From: Janthinobacterium rivuli
GTDB lineage: Bacteria > Pseudomonadota > Gammaproteobacteria > Burkholderiales > Burkholderiaceae_D
Assembly: GCF_029690045.1 (NCBI RefSeq)
Contig: NZ_CP121464.1
Coordinates: 930,001 to 994,000, forward strand
Reading direction: 5' to 3'
DNA length: 64,000 nucleotides
Below, piece by piece: positions 35,558-42,792 of this stretch (its first letter is position 1; every line of letters begins with the position of its first letter). Position numbers and translations under genes: made by a program. The notes beneath the pieces are model-generated. The model saw only the letters and a list, made by a program, of their open reading frames with translations. It was not told where the DNA came from and ran no database searches.

Positions 35558-36901
<1,344 letters not shown>

Positions 36902-36948
36902 CAGAATTCCATGGAGGTAATCGGTTATTTGGGCAACTATCATCGCAG

Positions 36949-36974
36949 ATTTCGCACGAAAATGGTGCGGAAAT
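36949..36974. promoter_or_regulatory. Near-perfect inverted repeat upstream of gdhA
   Basis: ATTTCGCAC (36949-36957) faces GTGCGGAAAT (36965-36974), an inverted repeat broken by one extra G, 48 bases upstream of the gdhA start. It could be an operator. The gap 36902-37077 otherwise shows only promoter-like, AT-richer sequence. Confidence 0.3.
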
Positions 36975-37069
36975 TTGGTTTTGAGGGGTTTCTGCTACAT
37001 TGCGGGGCGTATTTTCCAGCTGGCCGGTCCGTCAAAACAGGCAGTGGTCTGGTGGGGAAGTTGACCGAA

Positions 37070-37101
37070 AAAACAAAAATGCCAGCGTAAGCGCTGGCGT
37101 T
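37070..37101 (-). terminator. Intrinsic terminator of the sulfotransferase-glycosyltransferase operon
   Basis: On the minus strand, AACGCCAGC...GCTGGCATT forms the stem (37079-37101), followed by a T-rich run from the A-tract at 37067-37079. It lies directly after the glycosyltransferase stop. Confidence 0.85.
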
Positions 37102-37108
37102 GCCGTCC

Positions 37109-38098
37109 TTACGTCGGATGTCCGGAGCGTTCCGTGCGCGGTTCCGGCACGGGTGTTTCTTTGCCGATAAGGACCTGCATGGCGCGCTGCCGCAGTGCGT
37201 AGCGCCGACTGTGCGGAGCCCGGCATGCAATGGTATCGAGCAGGAAATAGCAAACGGAACGCAGGCCGGGTGCCGGGCGCGGCACGCTGGCGCGCCAGTA
37301 GCGTACGGCCGCCGAGATGCCGGTATGACCCAGCAGGGAACGCAGATTGTTCAGCAGGCGCGCGCAGCGGACCCGCTTCGCCAGCGCCGGCGCCAGCCGC
37401 TCGAGATAGGGCGCGACAATGGCGTCGATATTCAGGAAATGCTCGAGCTTGCGCGCCGGCGCCGTCATCTGCGGATGATGCTGCCGATAATGCAGCAGGA
37501 TATTGGTGCTGTAGCGGATGGACATGCCGGCGCTCAGGCAGCGTATCCAGTAATCGTAAGCGGCACCTTCCCGTATCTGTTCGTTGAAGGGCCCCATGCG
37601 GGAAAGTAATTTTTTGCTGAGCAGCACGCCGGATGGCTGAATAGGCGAGCCCAGCAGACAGGCCGGCCAGGAGGCAAACTGGCGTGGCGTCGCCCAGGGC
37701 GCAGGCGCGCCGGCGTCGCTGCGCAGAGTGGCGATCTGCGATGCCCACACCACCGCGTCCGGTGTTTCGGATGCTTGCGCCTGGCTAAGTTGTTCGGCCA
37801 GTTTTTCAGGGCGCCAGATGTCGTCATCGTCAATGAATGCCACCCATGCAGAGCGCACCGCGGCCACGCCCGTATTCCGGGCCGCCGCCAGTCCCTTGCC
37901 GGCATTCGGCAGGACGGTCACTTGCGGGTAGGTTTGCCGGACGTAGGCGGCCGTGCCATCGCTGCTGGCGTCATCGATCAGCAAGATTTCTTGCGCGGGC
38001 CGGGACTGGGCCAGCAAGGACTGCAAGGTGGCGTCGAGAAATCCCCGCGACCAGCCGTTCCTGGTGCAAATGATGACACTGACTGCCGCTGCGCTCAT
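37109..38098 (-). CDS. Glycosyltransferase family 2
   Basis: A 329-residue GT-A fold enzyme that transfers a sugar from an activated nucleotide donor. It has the N-terminal SVIICTRNG, the nucleotide-binding LLIDDASSDGT, the metal-binding DxD as FIDDDDIW and the acceptor-side REGAAYDYWIRCLSAG. The C-terminal third is basic and Arg-rich without membrane helices. It is the last gene of the four-gene operon, and its ATG overlaps the preceding stop (ATGA). Donor and acceptor are unknown; the context points to a sulfated, pyruvylated product. Confidence 0.9.
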   Translation of the reverse strand: MSAAAVSVIICTRNGWSRGFLDATLQSLLAQSRPAQEILLIDDASSDGTAAYVRQTYPQVTVLPNAGKGLAAARNTGVAAVRSAWVAFIDDDDIWRPEKLAEQLSQAQASETPDAVVWASQIATLRSDAGAPAPWATPRQFASWPACLLGSPIQPSGVLLSKKLLSRMGPFNEQIREGAAYDYWIRCLSAGMSIRYSTNILLHYRQHHPQMTAPARKLEHFLNIDAIVAPYLERLAPALAKRVRCARLLNNLRSLLGHTGISAAVRYWRASVPRPAPGLRSVCYFLLDTIACRAPHSRRYALRQRAMQVLIGKETPVPEPRTERSGHPT

Positions 38099-39396
38099 GT
38101 CGCCACGGCCGCAGGCGGCGCAACACGGATGCGTACGGCTGCGCCGTCTTGCCGGACTTCATACGGTTGCAGTGTCAATGACGGGCACGATGATTTTCCT
38201 GTTTGCAAGTCGAACGAGATGGCACAGGCCGGGCAATACACTTTATCGCTGTCACATCCGCCGTCGGCCAGGTCCACGCCGTAATGCGGGCAGGCCGCGT
38301 CGTAGGCGCGGGTGCCGTCGCTGGTGTGTACCAGCATGATGCGATACGGCGCGGCATCGACGATGATGCGCTGCGTGTCCGGCCCGGCGGCAGGCAGTTG
38401 GCCATGTATGAGGCCGCTTGTCTGGTCGAGCTGGCCAGCGATGACGGGAACGGCAGGCGGCGTCTGCACGGGCGCGCTTGTAACGGGCGCGCCGAAGTTG
38501 TCTTCGCGTTGCAGATGCAGGACTTCATCATGGCCCTGCTCGATATCGGCGGCCCGGCGCCAGAATTCGCGCGAATAAAAGCAGGCGGGATCGAACGTTG
38601 GCCTGGAAGCGTTCAGGCGCATGGAAATGGCCACGCGCGTGGCGTCGGTTGTATTCAGATGCGTGCCGTGCAGCACTTCAGGATCGAAGACCAGCATCTC
38701 GCCTGCTGCCAGGGGCAGGTAGGTGGGCACGGGCAGGCGGTAGCCCGCTTGCAGGTAGAGCGTGCGCCGCTCGCAGGGCAGCGGGACGTTGGCCAATTCC
38801 GGATACAGCACCATGCCCGCTTGCGCCGGCACTTCACCGATGGCCCACCAGATATTGCGCCCGTCGCGGGAGTGGCCGGCCCAGCTATCGATGTGCGGAC
38901 CATGCGCCCAGGCGGCGGGCGGGTGGCCGCGGTGATACGCTTTCGGTGCATACACGGGGTCGATGACCTTGCGCGTCTGGAATTTGTCGCGCACGCTAGC
39001 GCTGAGCCTGCCAATGCCGGGATTTTCGCTCGATGGATTGGTCTTGCGGGCCACTTCATAAGGGAAGTTGATGCGCAGGATCAAATAGTCGTCCACATAG
39101 AAATCGCCATCCCAGCCCAGGACCTGGCGTCCGACGGCCGTTGCCATGGCCAGCAAGGGCTGGCGCAAGCGCTCCAGTACCTGGTTGCGCAAGGACGCCA
39201 CATCGTCGGTGTCGATGACTTCGTGCAGCCGCTCGATGCCATGCTGGCGCAGCAGCTGGGCCGCAGCGGCGCCCTTCATTTGTCCGACCGTGGAAATGAG
39301 TTCGCTGAGCACGCGCTCGGTCATCGACTCCCAGGATGAGAGGTCGCGGACGTGGCATTTGAGCCACACGCCCTGGGACGAGGATGGCAAGTTCAT
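38095..39396 (-). CDS. Fusion of PhyH-type 2-oxoglutarate oxygenase and Rieske-like domain with Cys in place of the last His
   Basis: A 433-residue protein. Residues about 50-290 look like a phytanoyl-CoA dioxygenase-type Fe(II)/2-oxoglutarate oxygenase: HID in HGPHIDSWAG, the distal His in LHGTHLN and the 2-oxoglutarate Arg in TRVAISMRL. After a Pro/Val-rich linker (about 305-340) comes a Rieske-ferredoxin-like domain (about 345-433) with CPHYGVDL then, 17 residues on, CPACAISFDL. A standard Rieske site would have CPxH at the second position, so the predicted ligands are three Cys and one His. GGAG lies before ATG 39396. It is third in the operon. An oxidative tailoring step with a built-in electron-transfer domain is my inference. 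Confidence 0.75.
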   Translation of the reverse strand: MNLPSSSQGVWLKCHVRDLSSWESMTERVLSELISTVGQMKGAAAAQLLRQHGIERLHEVIDTDDVASLRNQVLERLRQPLLAMATAVGRQVLGWDGDFYVDDYLILRINFPYEVARKTNPSSENPGIGRLSASVRDKFQTRKVIDPVYAPKAYHRGHPPAAWAHGPHIDSWAGHSRDGRNIWWAIGEVPAQAGMVLYPELANVPLPCERRTLYLQAGYRLPVPTYLPLAAGEMLVFDPEVLHGTHLNTTDATRVAISMRLNASRPTFDPACFYSREFWRRAADIEQGHDEVLHLQREDNFGAPVTSAPVQTPPAVPVIAGQLDQTSGLIHGQLPAAGPDTQRIIVDAAPYRIMLVHTSDGTRAYDAACPHYGVDLADGGCDSDKVYCPACAISFDLQTGKSSCPSLTLQPYEVRQDGAAVRIRVAPPAAVAT

Positions 39397-39397
39397 C

Positions 39398-40438
39398 TCA
39401 TTGCTCCGTTGCCAGGGTGCGCAAGGTCTGCAAGCCGCGCAGCGTGATCTGCCGCAACTCCTGTATCAGCGGCAGGGCATCCTGGCGGGCGCGGTGATAT
39501 TGCGCGGCCGAGCGTGCGCGGTCCATGATGGCGCTCACGCAGTCGCCACTTTGCATCAGATCGACATCCCACGACGCCATGCCGATGGTCGACAGCATCG
39601 AGCGGCCCCGTTCGTCATACGACAGATTGATGCTGTGCGAACCCATTGCCAGGCACGGCAGGAAGCCATGCAGGCGGTAGCTGACGTGCAGCTTGCAGGT
39701 GCGCAGCGCCTCGATGTACCGGCCGACCTCGTCAAAGTACATGGGCGACGCTTCCGGGAAACCGGCAGCGAATTCGAGATCGATGTAGTCATGGCAGGCC
39801 AGATAAACCGGTTGCGCATATTCGGCACGCAGGGCGGCAATCAGGCGGCGCAGGTCTTCTGCGATGCGCCACTGCAAGGTGGCAGGAACGCTCATGCGCA
39901 TGGGGTGGCGGATGGAAATGATCACGCCGCCCGTGGCCGCTTCGCCTTCGGCATTCGGCGGCAAGTACAGCGTGGGGCAGCCTCCGACCGTCACCTTGGC
40001 GCCAAGGTCGGCGAGGATTTCTTGCGAACCCGTGTCGCGCACCATGGCCACCTTGGCGTGCTCGACCAAGTGCCGTATCGCAGTCGGGCTGAGCGCATCG
40101 GTGCGGTCTTCCATTTGCCCGTCCCGCCCCGTGATGCGGCCGTGGGACAGGCCCATCAGCATCATCGGCCGGCGCAAGGCATTGACGGCCTGGACATCAT
40201 AGGACAGCTGGCCGTTTTCAAACAGATTCCCGCCGCCCACGATGACGGCGTCGGCGAGACGGTTCATGTCATAGATCTGGCGCGCTACCAGGCCGCCAAA
40301 CTGCGGTCCCTTCAAGGCGGGAATGCTGACGACATTGGTGGCTGCTCCGAACACTTCGTAGAGGAGCTCGGCGGTAGCGTAGCCGATGAGATCGTTGCCG
40401 ATGTTGCGCGTGGTGGGCCGCACCATAAAGATATTCAA
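39398..40438 (-). CDS. Polysaccharide pyruvyl transferase family protein
   Basis: A 346-residue protein of the family that adds a pyruvate ketal to glycan sugars from phosphoenolpyruvate, or acts as a related GT-B-like enzyme. Features are MVRPTTRNIGNDLIGYATAELL at the N-terminus, ADAVIVGGGNLFENG, VIISIRHPMRM and the C-terminal KLHVSYRLHGFLPCLAMGSHSINLSYDERG. I keep the TTG start at 40438 because AAGGA sits six bases upstream; the alternative ATG 40426 would be too far. It is second in the operon, with the next start codon one base after its stop. Confidence 0.85.
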   Translation of the reverse strand: MNIFMVRPTTRNIGNDLIGYATAELLYEVFGAATNVVSIPALKGPQFGGLVARQIYDMNRLADAVIVGGGNLFENGQLSYDVQAVNALRRPMMLMGLSHGRITGRDGQMEDRTDALSPTAIRHLVEHAKVAMVRDTGSQEILADLGAKVTVGGCPTLYLPPNAEGEAATGGVIISIRHPMRMSVPATLQWRIAEDLRRLIAALRAEYAQPVYLACHDYIDLEFAAGFPEASPMYFDEVGRYIEALRTCKLHVSYRLHGFLPCLAMGSHSINLSYDERGRSMLSTIGMASWDVDLMQSGDCVSAIMDRARSAAQYHRARQDALPLIQELRQITLRGLQTLRTLATEQ

Positions 40439-40493
40439 TGTTCGTCCTTCTTGTTCTGTGTGTTTAACGAGGTGGCGAGGCCGGGGACGCGGA

Positions 40494-41294
40494 CTAGCCG
40501 CGTGCCGCGAGTTCTTCGATGAGTGCGCGAAAGCGCGATTTCAGTTCCGGATCGCCCGGGTAGGCGCCCTGATCCACGTCCAGCATGCGCTGGGCGCTTG
40601 CCGCATCGGCGCTGACGCCGAGCAAACCGGCAATCTCATTGATCAGCGTCAGATCGTGCCGGTTGACACGTTCGGTACTGATGACGAGCGGTTCGATACC
40701 CCGTTGCCTGAACCAGCTCTGCCAAAGTTGTTCATCCTCGGCAATGAGCTGCATGGCCTTGCGCGCCGCCAGTTTCAGGCGCCAGGTCGAGTAATTTTTT
40801 GTCACCGTGGCGGCTTCGAAACCCCAGCGCCCCGTGACCATGCAGGTCGCCAGGGACGCTGCCTGGGCGAGTTTGTTGTCGCGGATCAAATGAATGACCG
40901 TTGCGCCTTCGAACAGGGCAGCAAAATCGTGAGCATGGGGCCACTTTTGAATCTGGGGAAACTGGATATTCGACGCGAACACGCCATTCGCGGAACGCCT
41001 GGCATACATATGCGCCAGGTAATCCTGTTTCTTGATCTGCCAACGCTCCGTCAGCGCCTGTATGCTGTTGTCATTGAAATATTCCAGCGGCACGCCCATG
41101 CCCGCGCCGAGCAACAGGCGGGCCAGTCGCTTGCTCGATGCGCGAGGCGCAGCGCAGACCAGCAGTTTTTTATCGGGCAGCGACGATGACGTTGTATCGT
41201 AGGCGAGCGCACGCATTTCAGCGGGTGTAGGGCGCGTGTTGCTGGTCCATACTGACCTGGCATTCGCCAACGGAGTGGGGAGACGTTCATTCAT
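40494..41294 (-). CDS. Stf0-type sulfotransferase
   Basis: A 266-residue cytosolic enzyme similar to Stf0, which sulfates trehalose in mycobacteria using PAPS. The 5'-phosphosulfate loop reads CAAPRASSKRLARLLLGAGM, followed by PLEYFND; the 3'-phosphate region includes VIHLIRDNKLAQAASL. The C-terminus has VISTERVNRHDLTLINEIAGLLGV. The first gene of the operon, it is transcribed from an AT-rich region with an inverted repeat. The GC content is visibly lower than that of flanking genes. The acceptor is unknown. Confidence 0.82.
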   Translation of the reverse strand: MNERLPTPLANARSVWTSNTRPTPAEMRALAYDTTSSSLPDKKLLVCAAPRASSKRLARLLLGAGMGVPLEYFNDNSIQALTERWQIKKQDYLAHMYARRSANGVFASNIQFPQIQKWPHAHDFAALFEGATVIHLIRDNKLAQAASLATCMVTGRWGFEAATVTKNYSTWRLKLAARKAMQLIAEDEQLWQSWFRQRGIEPLVISTERVNRHDLTLINEIAGLLGVSADAASAQRMLDVDQGAYPGDPELKSRFRALIEELAARG

Positions 41295-41341
41295 GAGTGG
41301 CGGAGAGGCTGACTGAGCCTTGTTGCGTGCGATAGGATGCG

Positions 41342-41383
41342 TTTAAAGCAAAAATTACTTTCTTGAAATTATGTTGCTTTAAA
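41342..41383. promoter_or_regulatory. Perfect 10-bp inverted repeat upstream of the sulfotransferase operon
   Basis: TTTAAAGCAA (41342-41351) and TTGCTTTAAA (41374-41383) are exact reverse complements, 22 bp apart, 48-90 bases before the sulfotransferase start. This is the only AT-rich promoter-like stretch of the operon (about 41335-41450). A regulator site is likely; the protein is unknown. Confidence 0.5.
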
Positions 41384-41490
41384 ATACTATCTCACTTCAT
41401 GCCCTTTCATTCATAAAGTTGTATTTTATTTATGTACTCTGTCTCCCTCCAGCAACTAGTGGTGGCTGGTAGCAAGCTGAGCGGCCCATA

Positions 41491-41525
41491 AACGACAACG
41501 CCAGCCCGCAGGCTGGCGTTGTCGT
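41491..41525. terminator. Long perfect hairpin between the DUF819 gene and the operon promoter
   Basis: ACGACAACGCCAGCC (41492-41506), loop CGCA, GGCTGGCGTTGTCGT (41511-41525): a 15-bp perfect stem just after the DUF819 stop. A T-tract is weak, so termination strength is uncertain. Confidence 0.65.
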
Positions 41526-41544
41526 CACTATGCTGCCAGGAGCG

Positions 41545-42792
41545 TCACCCCGCCATGCTGCGCAAGATCAAGCCCGTGATGTAGGCGCCGTAGGTGCCCA
41601 GCGCGTAGCCGAGCACGGCCAGCAGCACGCCGACGGGGGCCAGGGCCGGGTGGAAGGCGCTGGCGATGACGGGGGCGGAAGCGGCGCCGCCGATGTTCGC
41701 CTGCGAGCCGACGGCCATGAAGAACAGCGGTGCGCGGATCAGCTTGGCGACGAGCAGCATCAGGCCGCCATGCACGGCGATCCAGATCAGACCCAGCAGG
41801 AACAGGAAAGGCTTGTCGAACAGGGCTTTCAAGTCCATGTGCATGCCGATGGTGGCCACCAGCACGTACAGCATGGCAGAGCCGATGGTCGAGGCGCCCG
41901 CGCCTTCCAGGCTGCGCGCTTTGGTAAAGCTCAGCAGCAAGCCGAAGGTGGTGGCGAGCACGACGATCCAGAAGAAGTTCGACGTCAGGCTGTAATCCTG
42001 CAAGCGCCATGCGGCGGGCAGGGTGTTGATCCAGCTGATGATGGGGCCGGCAAGGAAATGCGACAGGCCCGTCACGCCCAGGCCCACGCCGAGGATGATC
42101 ATGATGTCGGTGAGGGTGGCGATGCGCGCGTGTTGCGTGCGGTAGCTTTCGATGCTGTCCTTGAGCGCATTGATGGCCGTCAAATCGGCGCCGGTCCAGC
42201 GGTCGAAGGCGCCCGCGCGGCCGGCCAGGAACAACAGCACGGCCGTCCAGACGTTGGCCACCAGCACGTCGACGGCGACGAACTGGCCAAACAGCGTGGC
42301 GTCCACTTCAAACACTTCCTTCATGGCCGCCTGGTTGGCGCCGCCGCCTATCCACGAGCCGGCGACGGTCGTCATGCCGCGCCACGTATCGCCCGCCACT
42401 GTTTCCGGGTGGATCAAACGCAGCGCCTCGAACGAGACGAGGGCGCCCAGCATGACGCCCAGCGTGCCCGTCAAAAACATGATGATGGCCTTGGGGCCGA
42501 GGCGAATGATGCCGCCGAAATCGATGGCCACGCACAGCAGCACCAGCGCGCTGGGCAGCAGGTAATCGCGCGCCACGGCGTACAGGCCGGAAGAGTTGCC
42601 ATCGATGACGCCGAAGGTGTTGAGCAGTGCCGGGATCAGATAGCACATCAGCAGGGAAGGAATGTACGTGTAGAACTTTTTCCAGAAGCCGTCGGGGCGG
42701 GAGGCGCTCCAGAAGACGGCCCCCAGGGTCATGGCGAGCAGGCCGAGGACGACGGCGTCATTGGTGATCAGGGCAGGTGTGGCAGGTGGCAT
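41545..42792 (-). CDS. DUF819 family multi-pass membrane protein
   Basis: A 415-residue inner-membrane protein with about ten hydrophobic segments. It fits the DUF819 (YjcL-type) family: ITNDAVVLGLLAMTLGAVFW at the start, GSWIGGGANQAAMKEVF in the middle and AVGSQANIGGAASAPVIASAFHPALAPVGVLLAVLGYALGTY near the end. The two Gly/Asn-rich re-entrant-like motifs recall transporters such as GltS/CPA; substrate not established. It is a single gene. Confidence 0.85.
   Translation of the reverse strand: MPPATPALITNDAVVLGLLAMTLGAVFWSASRPDGFWKKFYTYIPSLLMCYLIPALLNTFGVIDGNSSGLYAVARDYLLPSALVLLCVAIDFGGIIRLGPKAIIMFLTGTLGVMLGALVSFEALRLIHPETVAGDTWRGMTTVAGSWIGGGANQAAMKEVFEVDATLFGQFVAVDVLVANVWTAVLLFLAGRAGAFDRWTGADLTAINALKDSIESYRTQHARIATLTDIMIILGVGLGVTGLSHFLAGPIISWINTLPAAWRLQDYSLTSNFFWIVVLATTFGLLLSFTKARSLEGAGASTIGSAMLYVLVATIGMHMDLKALFDKPFLFLLGLIWIAVHGGLMLLVAKLIRAPLFFMAVGSQANIGGAASAPVIASAFHPALAPVGVLLAVLGYALGTYGAYITGLILRSMAG

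Follow-up and report, generated by a model that had tools for sequence, protein, structure and literature searches.

A PhyH-type oxygenase fused to a Rieske-fold domain with cysteine at the fourth-ligand position in Janthinobacterium rivuli

Introduction

The Rieske centre is the textbook 2Cys-2His cluster, in which the two histidines set the potential and the proton coupling. In the window, the 64,000-nucleotide stretch of Janthinobacterium rivuli DNA analysed here, which lies within a 6.33-Mb single-contig genome, a first-pass annotation described a PhyH oxygenase fused to a Rieske-like domain in which a cysteine stands where the second of these histidines is expected. Is this cysteine a private feature of one copy or a trait of a family, which metal centre would such a domain hold, and what would it do behind an oxygenase?

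Results

A single protein combines a PhyH-type oxygenase and a Rieske fold

The gene, its domains and the residues on which the argument turns are listed below. Counts out of 121 and 124 refer to the Cys set and to its sister set of fused proteins, both defined in the following sections.

38095..39396, minus strand: PhyH Fe/2OG oxygenase with a C-terminal Rieske-fold domain, P0001 (ORF of 433 aa; Pfam; model; dN/dS)
38482..39396, minus strand: oxygenase domain, about residues 1-305 (limits by eye)
38119..38445, minus strand: Rieske-fold domain, about residues 318-426 (Pfam, Foldseek, profile search; limits by eye)
38893..38895, minus strand: H168 codon, predicted first Fe ligand of HxD...H (kept in 121/121 and 124/124)
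38887..38889, minus strand: D170 codon, predicted Fe ligand (kept in 121/121 and 124/124)
38668..38670, minus strand: H243 codon, predicted Fe ligand (kept in 121/121 and 124/124)
38635..38637, minus strand: R254 codon, expected 2-oxoglutarate anchor (kept in 121/121 and 124/124)
38290..38292, minus strand: C369 codon, predicted cluster ligand position 1 (Cys in 120/121)
38284..38286, minus strand: H371 codon, predicted cluster ligand position 2 (His in 117/121)
38233..38235, minus strand: C388 codon, predicted cluster ligand position 3 (Cys in 120/121)
38224..38226, minus strand: C391 codon, Cys replacing the fourth-ligand His (Cys in 119/121; His in 124/124 of the sister set)

The reading frame starts with ATG and runs through 433 codons with no internal stop. 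Both domains of the first-pass annotation were recovered above the Pfam curated cut-offs, Rieske (PF00355) with 28 bits against 20.3 over residues 351-401 and PhyH (PF05721) with 23.6 bits against 22 over residues 163-255. The oxygenase part has the PhyH-family fold and carries the HxD...H facial triad and distal arginine of PhyH-type Fe/2OG oxygenases; the role of R254 as the 2-oxoglutarate anchor is presumed from homology to human PhyH. The PhyH domain is predicted to catalyse 2OG-dependent oxidation of a substrate.

An AlphaFold2 model of the 433-aa protein, built with 110 of the 121 rows of the Cys set (alignment A2), was confident (pLDDT 94.1, pTM 0.91). Compared by Foldseek with Rieske ferredoxins, the predicted model matched 5bok at 2.7 Å over 101 columns, and 4p1b, 4p1c and 1vm9 at 1.7 Å over 84-85 columns (85 for 1vm9). 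Furthermore, the best match of a profile made from 13 CPxC domains was 5bok, the ferredoxin of 3-nitrotoluene dioxygenase (E 5e-10). The PDB match table spans the oxygenase part only (residues 1-294), and the Rieske fold is assigned from Foldseek, Pfam and the profile search. Structure modelling, which the first-pass annotation had suggested as a check on the cluster, went part of the way, giving a confident model with the Rieske ferredoxin fold.

Cysteine at position 391 is kept in nearly all relatives compared

In agreement with the first-pass annotation, the sequence shows C369-P-H371 and, further on, C388-P-A-C391, H371 and C388 being 17 positions apart, and C391 occupies the histidine column in alignments with solved Rieske ferredoxins. 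The strict Rieske ligand pattern, C-x-H...C-x-x-H with two Cys and two His, is not found in the query; since C391 replaces a histidine, we regard the domain as a Rieske fold outside the strict definition of a Rieske protein. Two further Rieske domains of the same genome (Pfam model, E 0.001) are canonical, with CRH...CPLH and CTH...CPCH.

To gather homologues, the 7997 candidates sharing most words with the query were scored, and the best 120 of 192 matches plus the query formed the Cys set of 121 fused proteins. C-H-C-C was the ligand set in 114 of them, the others having C-V-C-C (3), C-Y-C-C (1), W-H-C-C (1), C-H-C-H (1) or a disrupted CPxC loop (1). The rest of the Rieske signature was also retained, with P370 and G379 in 121/121, P389 and G400 in 120 and F395 in 119, as were H168, D170, H243 and R254 in all 121 (best 120 of 192 plus query). 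Comparison of the window copy with three other Janthinobacterium copies gave dN/dS values of 0.108, 0.122 and 0.155. A private mutation or sequencing error is ruled out by these values (0.108-0.155) together with Cys-391 in 119/121. CPxH in the homologues would have told against the first-pass annotation; with 119/121 showing Cys instead, Cys at 391 is a fixed trait of the protein family, beyond a single copy.

The first histidine appears dispensable: H371 is missing in 4/121 (Val in three, Tyr in one), and by eye these losses fall at three places of the careful tree described below (P0047; P0045; P0007 with P0009). No other conserved histidine that could substitute for the fourth-ligand His was found in the domain among the 121 aligned proteins. 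C381 was considered as a stand-in for H371, being present in 4/4 His-less members and 22/115 others (Fisher p 0.0019). We dropped this candidate and discounted the association because C381 is frequent among the closest relatives regardless (21 of the first 48).

A free-standing CPxC ferredoxin family appears unlikely. The 13 CPxC domains, searched alone, gave 18 matches at E 1e-6, with CPxC in 8 and canonical C-x-x-H in 10. The contigs that carry the 8 CPxC matches measure 533-2519 bases, and these matches are probably fragments of fusions; P0248 retains the end of an oxygenase, and P0246 (2519 bases) is the likeliest exception.

A sister set has the same architecture and canonical ligands

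A second homologue search started from six seeds, all with His: P0101, which was picked for this residue, and five distant fusions that had been taken from genome matches before their ligands were inspected. The best 120 of 184 matches, one seed included, and the four other genome seeds made up 124 proteins. Each of the two main searches scored about 8,000 candidates and may have missed forms intermediate between the sets. The ligand set was C-H-C-H in 124/124, with equivalents of H168, D170, H243 and R254 likewise in 124/124. Eleven members of the sister set that were compared with the query are 26-32% identical to it, and members such as P0122 and P0127 share its domain order and oxygenase residues, their motif being CPGH (Gly at the third place in 120/124) instead of CP[AG]C. 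The fusion, which the first-pass annotation had found odd, is therefore shared by proteins with canonical ligands, and the joining of oxygenase and Rieske domain probably predates the Cys swap.

In a quick tree of 80 of the 245 rows (45 Cys, 35 His), for which the stretch surrounding the fourth ligand was masked, this ligand needs two changes, and 0/500 label shuffles were as low. The quick tree flagged long branches for P0123 to P0126, and these were left out of a careful tree of 49 of the 245 rows, which was rooted by midpoint only and had the fourth-ligand loop masked. In the careful tree a branch with 100/100 support divides 16 canonical rows from the other 33, of which 32 have Cys and 1 has His. 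This sole His protein, P0101, may have reverted, as the quick tree has it, or may be an early branch that retained His; the careful tree allows either. With the root placed by midpoint only, we take His to be ancestral because the distant fusions and Rieske proteins at large carry it.

When 119 Cys proteins were compared with 118 His proteins (P0101 and P0090, and P0122 to P0126 and P0150, respectively, having been dropped), the residue carried by 70% or more of the members differed between the two sets at 49 further positions. Position 367 is Arg in 118/118 of the His set and Ala in 95/119 of the Cys set. The sets also differ near the oxygenase ligands in the sequence, at positions 163 (Trp/Arg) and 246 (His/Gln), which suggests that they may act on different substrates. 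C404 (codon 38185-38187) is Cys in 117/118 canonical fusions and in 65/121 of the Cys set.

The gene belongs to a four-gene cassette with a probable glycan role

The other genes of the cassette and the site at its end are as follows.

40494..41294, minus strand: Stf0-type sulfotransferase, first gene (Pfam PF09037, 51.4 bits)
39398..40438, minus strand: polysaccharide pyruvyl transferase, second gene, TTG start as listed mechanically (Pfam PF04230, 74.1 bits)
37109..38098, minus strand: family 2 glycosyltransferase, fourth gene (Pfam PF00535, 92.5 bits)
37081..37098, minus strand: terminator-like hairpin and T tail just past the last gene (consensus match only)

The oxygenase gene is the third of these four minus-strand genes, which, with mechanically assigned starts, are spaced by 55 bases, by 1 base and then by a 4-base overlap between the oxygenase stop and the glycosyltransferase start. 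Terminator-like sites numbered 6 in 36900-41600 against 3.7 expected in shuffles. Similar GC-rich hairpins flank the cassette, at 37073-37106 after the last gene and at 41492-41525 after the DUF819 gene. By Pfam, none of the four cassette genes encodes a reductase or ferredoxin, and PADLOC gave no defence-system match for any of them. The sulfo-, pyruvyl- and glycosyltransferases suggest that the cassette probably serves a surface glycan and point to a glycan as the likely substrate of the oxygenase; for the Cys clade, gene neighbours were examined in Janthinobacterium.

Comparison of 28 genomes that have the flanking DUF819 gene placed the cassette (37109-41294) between the DUF819 and glutamate dehydrogenase genes in 4. 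In 22/28 these two genes lie 151-1008 bases apart and the cassette is absent, while the stretch compared held no dehydrogenase gene in 2/28. This pattern suggests that the cassette is mobile or frequently lost. In one genome, an opposite-strand ABC transporter gene (L002, 10336-12186) stands between the cassette and the dehydrogenase gene. Only Janthinobacterium sp. LM6 and sp. 344 returned the locus among named genome contigs, with 92% and 88% identity over the best protein segment.

The Cys clade occurs in 4 of 40 Janthinobacterium genomes and was not found in the wider samples

The Cys-clade gene was found in 4/40 genomes of the genus, J. rivuli included. None was found outside the genus in samples of 195 family, 399 order and 398 phylum genomes, or in samples of 48 and 385 genomes from two other classes; in all of these but the 48-genome sample, 4 to 9 candidates were scored per genome, at which depth a copy may be missed. 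Organism names were available for 9 of the 120 relatives (best 120 of 192), of which 7 are alphaproteobacterial (Caulobacter twice, Methylorubrum, Bradyrhizobium, Hyphomonadaceae, Xanthobacteraceae and one unclassified) and 2 are from Acidobacteriota and Aminicenantes. Given the mostly alphaproteobacterial named relatives and the lack of copies in the family and order samples, the gene was likely transferred into Janthinobacterium. A plasmid search with the query gave one weak match (28.3% over 53%), and a phage search with P0101, the only protein tried, gave none. A 20-genome probe returned four matches to the Rieske part only (E 2.9e-12 to 6.4e-11), three of which (L009-L011) read as short separate Rieske-type proteins.

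Distant fusions occurred once in the phylum sample and four times in the 385-genome sample, with the canonical His in 5/5. Among 19 neighbouring proteins chosen by position and tested with Pfam, glycosyltransferase, polysaccharide flippase or NeuB-type genes were found near 4/5 of these fusions. A cytochrome b561 gene (L016, 6597-7355), whose product is a possible electron donor, adjoins one of these four canonical PhyH-Rieske fusions, in a polysaccharide-type cluster. Furthermore, DAO-type FAD oxidoreductase genes lie near two distant fusions (L018, 9791-10933; L019, 7830-9077), directly upstream in L019, where this was the sole finding among the Pfam-tested neighbours.

Discussion

Each half of the protein has familiar counterparts. 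The Rieske-type ferredoxins of bacterial oxygenases (5bok, 1vm9, 2qpz; PF00355) share the fold, the loop signature and three of the four ligand positions with the query, but have His where it has C391, and the query domain sits behind an Fe/2OG oxygenase. Rieske non-heme ring-hydroxylating oxygenases combine an N-terminal Rieske domain with a C-terminal catalytic domain of its own fold; the query, in contrast, has the reverse order and a PhyH-type catalytic domain, and does not belong among them. The PhyH-type Fe/2OG oxygenases PtlH, MysH, human PhyH, EvdO2 and EctD share the fold of the oxygenase part at 12-18% identity and presumably also its HxD...H...R set; none of them is known to have a Rieske domain. 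The best NCBIfam match, on the oxygenase part, is TIGR04324 (sporadic carbohydrate cluster 2OG-Fe(II) oxygenase), a model of 248 positions without a Rieske part, and its 38.2 bits fall below the curated cut-off of 150, which places the query outside that family. In the open-access literature searched we recognised no description of a Rieske domain with a natural Cys-for-His swap, nor of PhyH and Rieske domains fused; subscription literature lay outside this scope and may hold earlier reports.

Three Cys and one His also ligate [2Fe-2S] clusters in nature in mitoNEET/CDGSH proteins, IscR and IscU, whose folds differ from the Rieske fold. The query shows no C-x-C...CDGSH-type motif by eye, and Pfam to E 0.1 returned only Rieske and PhyH. 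The ligand order of CDGSH proteins is given as C-x-C...C-D-G-S-H in PMC5859297. Natural 3Cys-1His clusters had at first been attributed to mitoNEET-type proteins alone; one review names E. coli IscU, IscR and yeast Fra2-Grx3 besides mitoNEET (PMC9737848). An engineered Rieske fold has also borne such a cluster: PMC2946596 describes the H64C mutant of the archaeal Rieske ferredoxin ARF of Sulfolobus, in which a low-potential 3Cys-1His [2Fe-2S] cluster assembles, and the H44C mutant, altered at the first His, in which assembly fails. ARF H64C has the same type of fold and the same His-to-Cys position as C391, but it is a man-made, unfused single mutant, whereas the query is natural and fused.

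Our preferred reading, to which we give a probability of about 0.5, is an Fe/2OG oxygenase acting on a surface glycan with its own electron-transfer domain of Rieske fold and a 3Cys-1His [2Fe-2S] centre. Instead, a rubredoxin- or zinc-ribbon-like C-x-H...C-x-x-C site could bind one metal ion, a structural zinc or a mononuclear iron, in a domain that stabilises the protein or docks a partner. Zinc knuckles often have the form CPxC, here CP[AG]C, which counts for such a site, as do the slightly better retention of the three Cys (119-120/121) than of the His (117/121) and the lack of an electron-transfer partner in the four-gene cassette. According to PMC2946596, Rieske cluster loops resemble those of rubredoxins and zinc ribbons, and an ARF triple mutant became rubredoxin-like; in the same account, however, H64C alone gave [2Fe-2S] and the mononuclear site took two further changes. 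Moreover, 3Cys-1His CDGSH domains were initially called zinc-binding and, as PMC5859297 relates, proved to hold [2Fe-2S], and the Rieske fold of the predicted model and the loop signature are retained. Because ARF tolerates H64C and fails with H44C, and the family keeps the first His in 117/121, [2Fe-2S] is favoured over zinc, by about 70 to 25 in our estimate; we infer this cofactor by homology and from the engineered precedent, and consider a zinc or single-iron site unlikely, yet a serious contender.

A labile 3Cys-1His [2Fe-2S] cluster might also serve as a switch that senses oxidants or iron supply and gates the oxygenase without passing electrons to its iron. Oxygenases of this class need no electron donor to function, which would suit such a role, and PMC9737848 and PMC11138216 describe the clusters of mitoNEET and IscR as solvent-accessible or labile and engaged in transfer or sensing. 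The canonical ligands of the sister set (124/124) speak against it, their usual job being electron transfer, and nothing in our analysis ties the enzyme to regulation; we consider this role improbable. Still further down we place a decayed domain that has lost its cofactor and is drifting. Proteins with a missing ligand do occur among the 121 (CVCC 3, CYCC 1, WHCC 1, disrupted CPxC loop 1), but drift would not leave 119/121 with the same Cys, the three Cys are near-invariant, and dN/dS over the gene is 0.11-0.16, which leaves decay with very little credit.

In the preferred reading of an oxygenase with its own [2Fe-2S] domain, the enzyme would act oxidatively on a cell-surface sugar or on a glycan intermediate linked to a carrier. 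C369 and C388 would bind the inner iron of the cluster, and H371 and C391 the outer iron. The swap would remove one of two protonatable His ligands and should lower the reduction potential, since Rieske potentials of -150 to +400 mV, according to PMC11138216, exceed those of [2Fe-2S] ferredoxins, and a lower potential was reported for mutant ARF. With its lower potential, a centre of this kind would match a stronger reductant, for example a flavin reductase. Single electrons might then pass from a cellular reductase through the Rieske-fold domain to the oxygenase iron, a path that, with its purpose, we offer as speculation. The most likely purpose would be to keep or return the iron at Fe(II) after unproductive turnover, in place of ascorbate; alternatively, the reaction may have an electron count other than that of plain hydroxylation. 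Against the preferred reading stand the loss of H371 in 4/121, the likeness of CPxC to a zinc knuckle and the lack of a reductase or ferredoxin gene in the cassette; Fe/2OG oxygenases, moreover, normally turn over without an electron partner. Only tentatively, then, with the odds somewhat against it, do we propose that in this Rieske fold a low-potential 3Cys-1His [2Fe-2S] centre of natural origin feeds electrons to an Fe/2OG oxygenase within one polypeptide, possibly for surface-sugar chemistry beyond that of ordinary 2OG oxygenases.

Nature appears to have made the ligand change that chemists once engineered. The Cys subfamily, standing beside a His sister set of the same architecture, provides a ready-made test of the role of the second His, and it raises the question of why an electron donor would be built into a kind of oxygenase that can ordinarily do without one. 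If the proposal is true, the family would represent a cofactor ligation new to the Rieske fold, joined to an oxygenase that has its reduction built in.
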